Shown one piece after another: positions 41,941-43,860 of a stretch of DNA of 64,000 bases. The number at the start of each line of letters is the position of its first letter. Positions within the stretch are counted from its first letter, which is position 1. Below the pieces are notes generated by a model. That model worked only from the letters and a program-made list of their open reading frames with translations. It was not told where the DNA came from and searched no databases. Source of the DNA: Aliarcobacter cibarius (GTDB taxonomy: Bacteria > Campylobacterota > Campylobacteria > Campylobacterales > Arcobacteraceae). The stretch spans positions 1,884,596 through 1,948,595 of the forward strand of contig NZ_CP054051.1 of the NCBI RefSeq assembly GCF_013372265.1, in the 5' to 3' direction. Position numbers and translations under genes: made by a program.

Positions 41941-43860
41941 TTAACTTCGCGATTTTACTGTAATTTTTCTAATATCAAAGAGTTCTTTTACTTTATCAAC
42001 CATTTTTGAATTTAAAATATCATTTACTAATAACTCTTTTGATGACAAAGTCTCATTTGTAGCTTGTAAAATGCTAGCAACACAACCCGAACCAACCTCA
42101 ATATCTTCTATCATTGAACCTATATCATTTTGAACATCTTTCTGCTCTTCTTGAACTCTATTTTCATCTTCTTCTTTAACTAAAGATTCATTTAGTATGG
42201 TGGCTTCTTCCTTTTTAAAATCTAGTTCCACATTTGAGCCAAAAACTTCTTGTGCAAAAGCTTTTATTATTCCAAAATGTTTATATAAGAGCTTTCTTTC
42301 TTCATCTTTTGCATATGAAATTATCTGTAGCACATTATTTGAAAAACCATTATAAATAAAGTTTTTCTCAAAACACTCACCTAATTCAAAATCTCTATCA
42401 TAAACTTTTTCAGTTAATTTTGTATACAAATCAATTGATTCATCTCTTTCTTCAACAAAAGGAATATATTCTATCTCTTCTACTGGGTTATATAAAATTT
42501 CCTCAATTTTTTCTATTTCAACAGCACTTATCTCTTTTTTTGAAAAATCCTCTTCAGGCTTTATTGTAGGTAGTTCATCAAAAGGAGTTTGAAACTTTAA
42601 AGCAGGTATTGCATCTGCTATAATATTTAAGGAAGTAGTATTTGAAATCATTTTATCTTCAACTTCAATATTAACATTGATTTCTTTGCTTATACTTTCA
42701 ACTTTTATCAAAGTTTCTATTGGTTCTTTTACAGATATAGGTTCTTCTAAAATATTTTCAATAACTTTTGCAACTTTAGTAGTTTCAGGTTTTGGTTCAA
42801 TTTTTTCAATTTTATTTATAATATCATCTATTGATTTTAATTTTGTAGCTTCCATTAACTTCATAAAAGTCAATATTAAAACAAATGTACCATCACTATT
42901 TATTGCTAAAAGATGTTTTGCATCACTTAAAATTCTAAAAAATCTATCAAAAAGAATAATATCAAATCTTCTATCTTTTAAAATCATTTTATCTTTTAAA
43001 AATAGAATCATTTCATCTATTACTTGAGTAGTTTCATAGATTTCTAACTCTTTTAAAATATCGTTTATATCACCTTGATTTAAAATAATAGAAAAAATTG
43101 CTTCCATCTTTTCTGGATTTATTAAACCTAACATCTCAACAACACTTTTACAATCTACTCTATTTTTTGAAAAAATAATTGCTTGATCAAGTAAAGTCAA
43201 TGTGTCTCTTAAACTTCCCTGCCCTCCTCGAGCTAAAATATTTAAAGCATCTTTTTCAAAATCTATTTTTTCTTCATGCAAAATATGACTTAAATGATGA
43301 ACAACATCATTTTGAGATATTTTATTAAATCTAAAATGTTGAGTTCTACTAAGTATTGTTGCAGGTAATTTTAAAGCATCAGTAGTTGCAAGTATAAATT
43401 TAACAAAACCTGGAGGTTCTTCAAGAGTTTTAAGTAATGCATTAAATGCTTGAGTAGTAAGCATATGAACTTCATCAATAATAAAAACTTTAAATCTAGC
43501 AAGACTTGGTTTATATTTTGTATGTTCAATTAACTCTTTGATATCATCTATTCCTCTATTACTAGCTGCATCCATTTCTATAATGTCAAGATGTTTTCCA
43601 TTATTTGCACTTGCACAGTTTTCACAAACTTCACAAGGTTTACTTGTTGGTCCTTTTTCACATAAAAGTGCTTTAGCCATAATTCTAGCTGTACTAGTTT
43701 TACCACTTCCTCTTAATCCTGAAAATAAATAAGCATGTGAAAGTCTTGAGCTATCAAGTGCAAGGCTTAATGTTTGAGAAACTGTGCTTTGCCCAATTAA
43801 ATCTTCAAATCTTTTTGGCCTATACTTTAATGCCAAAACTCTATCTTGAATACTACTCAT
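41941..43860 (-). CDS. dnaX: DNA polymerase III subunits tau/gamma
   Basis: This 639-residue clamp-loader ATPase carries Walker A GLRGSGKTSTARIM (about 49-62), a four-Cys zinc site (CEKGP..CEVCENC), Walker B FIIDEVHML (about 127) and sensor I SRTQHF. The C-terminal third (about 350-639) is acidic and poorly conserved, as in tau. At codons 440-442 the message reads A-AAA-AAA-G preceded by an AAGAGGA ribosome-binding-like sequence. A -1 shift there gives a 447-residue product and a +1 shift one of about 443 residues, close to E. coli gamma (431). It overlaps murI by four bases, so it is coupled to it. Confidence 0.94.
   Translation of the reverse strand: MSSIQDRVLALKYRPKRFEDLIGQSTVSQTLSLALDSSRLSHAYLFSGLRGSGKTSTARIMAKALLCEKGPTSKPCEVCENCASANNGKHLDIIEMDAASNRGIDDIKELIEHTKYKPSLARFKVFIIDEVHMLTTQAFNALLKTLEEPPGFVKFILATTDALKLPATILSRTQHFRFNKISQNDVVHHLSHILHEEKIDFEKDALNILARGGQGSLRDTLTLLDQAIIFSKNRVDCKSVVEMLGLINPEKMEAIFSIILNQGDINDILKELEIYETTQVIDEMILFLKDKMILKDRRFDIILFDRFFRILSDAKHLLAINSDGTFVLILTFMKLMEATKLKSIDDIINKIEKIEPKPETTKVAKVIENILEEPISVKEPIETLIKVESISKEINVNIEVEDKMISNTTSLNIIADAIPALKFQTPFDELPTIKPEEDFSKKEISAVEIEKIEEILYNPVEEIEYIPFVEERDESIDLYTKLTEKVYDRDFELGECFEKNFIYNGFSNNVLQIISYAKDEERKLLYKHFGIIKAFAQEVFGSNVELDFKKEEATILNESLVKEEDENRVQEEQKDVQNDIGSMIEDIEVGSGCVASILQATNETLSSKELLVNDILNSKMVDKVKELFDIRKITVKSRS
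42535..42554 (-). promoter_or_regulatory. Candidate dnaX slippery site with upstream Shine-Dalgarno-like element
   Basis: On the minus strand AAGAGGA (42554-42548) lies six bases before seven A residues (42541-42535), positioned in frame as A-AAA-AAA-G at codons 440-442. The -1 frame meets TGA after five codons and the +1 frame meets TAA after one. This is the longest A-run I saw in the gene. Confidence 0.5.

Follow-up and report, generated by a model that had tools for sequence, protein, structure and literature searches.

On the reverse strand of the window, by which we mean the whole analyzed stretch of 64,000 nucleotides from Aliarcobacter cibarius, lies the gene for DnaX, the gamma/tau subunit of DNA polymerase III. 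Its identification rests on NCBIfam profiles (NF006280, 705 bits with a cut-off of 572; dnaX_nterm, 398 bits), and the Pfam domain III model PF12169 gave no match in the A. cibarius genome. An AlphaFold2 model spanning residues 450-639 of the protein displays a compact domain up to residue 550 (pLDDT of 83-92 over most of the globular part), followed by disorder and then by two helices in the conserved tail. The features discussed below, including the proposed site of recoding, are presented in Table 1.

Table 1 Features of the window dnaX gene, in the order in which the gene is read
Feature	Positions in the window	Strand	Basis
dnaX, DNA polymerase III subunit gamma/tau, 639 aa in the zero frame	41941..43860	-	ORF and profile matches
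AAGAGGA-TTTTTC-A7 element, flagged earlier and judged incidental	42535..42554	-	chance frequency, conservation, structure
Globular C-terminal domain, approximately residues 473-550, ending just before the proposed shift site	42211..42444	-	AlphaFold2 model
AAGGAAGAA (codons 550-552), internal Shine-Dalgarno-like AAGGAA plus 3-nt spacer GAA	42205..42213	-	AAG in 29/29 congeners, anti-SD pairing
GCC (codon 553), proposed P-site codon of the +1 slip, GCC_A to CCA	42202..42204	-	NCC in 29/29 congeners; U34 tRNA-Ala
ACC (codon 554), rare zero-frame A-site codon	42199..42201	-	NCC in 29/29 congeners; only tRNA-Thr UGU
Disordered linker and conserved C-terminal tail, residues 554-639, missing from the predicted +1 product	41944..42201	-	alignment A2, model
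TAA in the +1 frame, two codons past the shift; predicted product ...KKEEA-PY, 555 aa	42192..42194	-	+1 reading

A Shine-Dalgarno-like element and rare NCC codons at codons 550-556

Codons 549-557 of the window gene read AAA AAG GAA GAA GCC ACC ATA CTA AAT. Codon usage was assessed in a genome sample of 380 CDS from 21 stretches of the same chromosome (~464 kb), in which AAG makes up 9% of Lys codons, GCC 2.9% of Ala codons and ACC 1.6% of Thr codons. The in-phase combination AAGGA-N4-NCC has a single occurrence in these 380 CDS, namely that in dnaX.

The same signal is present throughout the genus. In all 29 congeneric dnaX genes, codon 550 is AAG and codons 553-554 are NCC NCC, either GCC ACC (15 genes) or CCC TCC (14 genes); the encoded amino acids change accordingly (Ala-Thr or Pro-Ser) while the NCC NCC bases stay fixed, indicating that the signal is kept beyond what protein coding demands. 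The codons at 553-554 account for 1-3% of their codon families, NCC codons as a whole represent 0.9% of the codons in these genes, and this region is the most extreme rare-codon window of dnaX in the 29 congeners. Only 2 of the 57 conserved four-fold-degenerate columns of dnaX are codon-invariant across the genus, and 1 of the 19 all-lysine columns is AAG throughout. AAGGA at the fixed spacing was found in 55 dnaX genes.

The anti-Shine-Dalgarno (anti-SD) sequence CCTCCT is present in all six rrn copies of A. cibarius, whose 16S genes have the customary terminal sequence GGATCACCTCCTTT. The duplex formed with the window element has a calculated energy of -5.6 kcal/mol, weaker than that of relatives with AAGGAGG (-11.6), which pair as strongly as E. 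coli prfB (-10.7); a duplex as strong as that of the window is reached in 7% of the 15-nt windows of dnaX. For Ala, Pro and Thr the genome encodes no tRNAs other than those with U34, and its Ser tRNAs are UGA and GCU. Decoding of NCC codons for these three amino acids and for four-box Ser thus depends entirely on U34 tRNAs, and each NCC at the site requires U-C wobble, which may be the reason why NCC codons were chosen. After a +1 slip, re-pairing of CCC_T to CCT, the arrangement in half of the genus, keeps both G-C pairs, and re-pairing of GCC_A to CCA loses the first-position pair and gains the third-position pair. Downstream of codons 550-556, no RNA structure was found beyond that of shuffled sequences.

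The mechanism that we propose is as follows. A ribosome with the rare GCC (codon 553) in the P site, read by a U34 tRNA only, would stall at the rare ACC (codon 554); the anti-SD of 16S rRNA would pair with AAGGAA just upstream, so that the mRNA would be strained, and some ribosomes would slip one base forward, read CCA TAC (Pro-Tyr) and end at TAA, giving a product of 555 aa. Ribosomes remaining in the zero frame would produce the 639-aa tau form. A slip at the second NCC codon would also be possible and would reach the same stop. The weak points of the window site are its moderate SD-like element, the poorer re-pairing of GCC_A and an A site occupied by a rare sense codon instead of a stop.

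Off-frame stops and split dnaX genes in Arcobacteraceae

Is the off-frame consequence of such a slip conserved as well? The window DnaX was aligned to 104 genomes of the family. A +1 stop lies no more than three codons from the slip in 43 of the 45 single-ORF genes with the motif, against a background of 37% calculated from the second-half codons of these genes, although counts of genomes overstate independence because the species are related. These stops are TAA or TAG, one to three codons off, and arise from different sequences in different clades.

Several other dnaX genes of the family break at query residue ~554 and then continue in another frame, which is always +1; an example of the motif at the break is AAG GAA GAC CCC TCC ACA AGA GGA GCC TAA. 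In 10 complete dnaX genes the frames exchange roles: the zero frame closes 3-5 codons past the NCC codon, and the +1 frame continues without a stop for 81-108 codons, reaching the conserved DnaX end. In an eleventh case, the partial gene L019, the zero frame likewise closes shortly past the motif and the conserved tail is in +1. The two frames overlap by 23-32 nt in nine of the 10 split genes and by 98 nt in the tenth (L076); thus, in those nine genes the shift must fall within the approximately 10 codons that hold the motif. The off-frame outcome is therefore conserved in both groups, as quick +1 stops in the former and as the tail in +1 in the latter. In the split relatives, the zero frame would yield the short form and the +1 frame would yield tau, which suggests that the seemingly broken dnaX genes of some Arcobacteraceae are intact and depend on a frameshift.

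These comparisons of sequences make it very probable that a programmed +1 ribosomal frameshift at codons 550-556 of dnaX yields a DnaX protein without its C-terminal tail, and a short DnaX made by recoding is, more generally, probable for this gene. The comparisons support well where the signal lies and in which direction it acts; what we infer is the molecular step, together with the occurrence of slippage, the choice between the two NCC codons, the frequency of the event and the role of the short form.

Alternative explanations and the A7 run at codons 440-442

Another question is whether the conserved AAGGAAGAA-NCC-NCC could be a translational pause at a domain boundary, aiding the folding of the preceding domain with no programmed frameshift involved. 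The site separates a folded domain, which it directly follows, from a disordered linker, and SD-like sequences and rare codons can slow ribosomes. However, a pause leaves unexplained the +1 stops in 43 of the 45 relatives, the 10 genes with the conserved tail in +1 and the poly-A runs or A_AAA_AAG at that place in other relatives, and we consider it unlikely. Internal initiation, in which the SD-like element would drive separate translation of a C-terminal DnaX fragment, has the existence of that element in its favor, but the first possible start of the +1 ORF lies at least 27 codons downstream in 8 of the 10 split genes. The exceptions are L063, where an ATG abuts the SD-like element, and L076, where the +1 ORF begins further upstream. 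Internal initiation moreover predicts neither the rare NCC codons nor the +1 stops, and it appears very unlikely.

A different site in the same gene had been put forward in the initial annotation: an A7 run at codons 440-442, where a -1 frameshift or transcriptional slippage would give a gamma form of 443-447 aa. The local particulars of that proposal are real. The run occupies positions 42541..42535, codons 440-443 read TCA AAA AAA GAG and thus place A_AAA_AAA_G in the -1-slippery phase, the SD-like AAGAGGA (42554..42548) ends 6 nt upstream, and the off-frame readings terminate quickly, after ...KKRDKCC in -1 and after ...KKR in +1. Such a heptamer is nevertheless ordinary in this genome. In the 380 sampled CDS (133,986 codons), in-phase A_AAA_AAA has 339 instances in 202 genes, corresponding to an expectation of ~1.6 per 640-codon gene, and in 207 of these cases a -1 stop follows within six codons. 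Nor is the run conserved: among the 29 congeners, AAA AAA is present at this position in the window only, the 28 others lacking it and the aligned codons being mostly gaps. In the two closest species (~82% identity), the corresponding residues are QNIEQTAT and QIIQQEII, with A runs of 5 and 6.

The A7 run is located in a hypervariable linker of DnaX, and the match of its position to the E. coli dnaX site is best regarded as a coincidence inside this fast-evolving region. The SD-like element is merely 6 nt away, and a downstream stem is missing (z = 0.36 compared with shuffles), as the initial annotation had also noted. The heptamer is A_AAA_AAA followed by G rather than A_AAA_AAG, and in E. 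coli the former is reported to be far less shift-prone than the latter (PMC5009743). Slippage of the Thermus type is poorly matched by seven A, a run shorter than the A9 of Thermus and below the length of 9 nt at which many genomes show evident selection against slippage (PMC1088944). The A7 run was dropped as a programmed site on the grounds of its chance frequency and missing conservation, and we regard its involvement as extremely unlikely. The broader expectation of a short, gamma-like DnaX made by frameshifting is supported, with the site shifted ~110 codons downstream, the direction changed to +1 and a predicted product of ~555 aa instead of 443-447.

Finally, the view that assembly errors or pseudogenes account for the split dnaX genes, with the motif being a functionless phylogenetic relic, is hardly credible: some of the genomes are fragmented assemblies, but ten distinct genes, in genomes that are all at least 91% complete, switch to +1 at one and the same motif and have the tail conserved downstream, and synonymous sites elsewhere in dnaX are largely scrambled.

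The predicted short product, other devices and known recoding systems

If the +1 frameshift occurs as proposed, the 555-aa form would keep the AAA+ clamp-loader core, the linker and the globular C-terminal domain and would lose the disordered stretch beyond that domain together with the tail. In E. coli, tau residues 611-636, at the extreme C-terminus, bind Pol III alpha (PMC11470591). By analogy, the part comprising residues 554-639 is the candidate for binding Pol III alpha, and its tail is probably the polymerase tether; the short form would therefore resemble gamma, as a subunit that would load clamps but not hold the polymerase.

Where the SD-NCC motif is missing from dnaX in the family, A10-A12 runs or A_AAA_AAG are mostly present near the same place. 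The A10-A12 runs lie 77-128 codons before the end of dnaX, with both off-frames stopping within a few codons, and the genes carrying them (L074, L077, L078, L079, L081, L082, L085-L088, L090, L093-L095 and L103) are candidates for transcriptional slippage. In eight genes (L056, L057, L058, L060, L068, L069, L075 and L091), A_AAA_AAG is in phase 81-94 codons before the end of dnaX, and the -1 frame closes exactly one codon later, as in E. coli dnaX; seven of these eight come from the genus that also contains nine of the split +1 genes. The dnaX genes of L011, L012 and L015 lack all three devices. On a DnaX tree built from the first 400 residues, approximately 12 changes of device type are required for five labels, and the reversed +1 type accounts for at least two changes when only starred branches are trusted, many forks being weak.

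Elsewhere in the order, dnaX genes of other families carry A9-A10 runs at comparable places, and a simple scan showed several families without any device. The dnaX of one genome of family f14 (L190, L198) contains AAGGAAGAACCCCGACAGG with a +1 stop after four codons, which is nearly the same as in the split gene L066.

The importance of the short DnaX form has long been debated. On balance, we favor the view that in Arcobacteraceae a shortened DnaX is under strong selection and that the device producing it may have been repeatedly exchanged among +1 SD-NCC frameshifting (with either the long or the short form as the shifted product), -1 frameshifting at A_AAA_AAG and A10-A12 slippage; the +1 device would be new. 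If this is true, the repeated replacement of devices at one codon position and the reversal of frame roles would argue that bacteria need both forms.

How does the proposed site compare with known systems? It shares with the +1 frameshift of prfB the direction of the shift and an SD-like hexamer 3 nt before the slippery codon. In prfB, three bases separate AGGGGG from the CTTT behind it (PMC12421855), and the register is the same (AGG GGG TAT CTT vs. AAG GAA GAA GCC); in neither case is a downstream structure seen. The differences concern the slippery sequence, which is NCC_N here instead of CTTT, and the A site, which holds a rare sense codon, mostly ACC or TCC, instead of the zero-frame UGA stop. 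The gene is also a different one, the shift would here shorten the product, and autoregulation by RF2 is not expected. The prfB gene of A. cibarius itself (L170, 255-1352), tried as a positive control, is one uninterrupted ORF of 365 aa without the usual +1 frameshift, so the organism provides no internal control. A prfB-like +1 signal without a stop codon would join the known bacterial recoding sites.

With the -1 frameshift of E. coli dnaX, the window site has in common the gene, the pair of tau and a shorter DnaX, and an off-frame stop within a few codons, whereas the E. coli system, which also has an upstream SD, shifts to -1, uses another slippery site (A_AAA_AAG) and has a stem-loop. The E. 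coli site is situated at two-thirds of the gene and that of the window at seven-eighths, so the short form would here retain the globular domain. The A9 slippage site of Thermus thermophilus is in the same gene and, at seven-eighths of the coding sequence (PMC1088944), has a similar relative location. The A10-A12 runs of the relatives lie at an approximately equivalent place, whereas the window site has no homopolymer and the mechanism proposed for it is ribosomal.

Antonov et al. (2013) described 17 two-ORF dnaX genes, all with a -1 transition at the DNA level and 12 with poly-A stretches (PMC3711429). As in the 10 split relatives, tau needs recoding in these genes and the zero frame gives the short form. 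In contrast to them, the transition of the split relatives is +1, at an SD-like element and NCC codons without a long poly-A at the site, and the window gene is a single ORF. One gene of another family of the order (L184, family f11) is split at A10 with the tail in -1 and resembles the two-ORF type of Antonov et al. In the open-access literature, we found no report of a +1 frameshift in dnaX or of recoding in Arcobacter dnaX; a +1 device acting at rare NCC codons, which U34 tRNAs alone decode, would represent a route to tau and gamma not described before.

The globular domain that the short form would retain was also compared with known structures. A sequence search of solved structures revealed no relative of the C-terminal domain, and Foldseek gave no match at E ≤ 0.001; the structure of E. 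coli tau domain V is absent from these match lists, which excludes nothing. The fold resembles that of DnaA domain I (4tps_B, Z 9.4, rmsd 2.4, 79 aligned), this being a resemblance only, and weak Foldseek matches to DciA were also seen; DnaA and DciA are both replication-initiation proteins.
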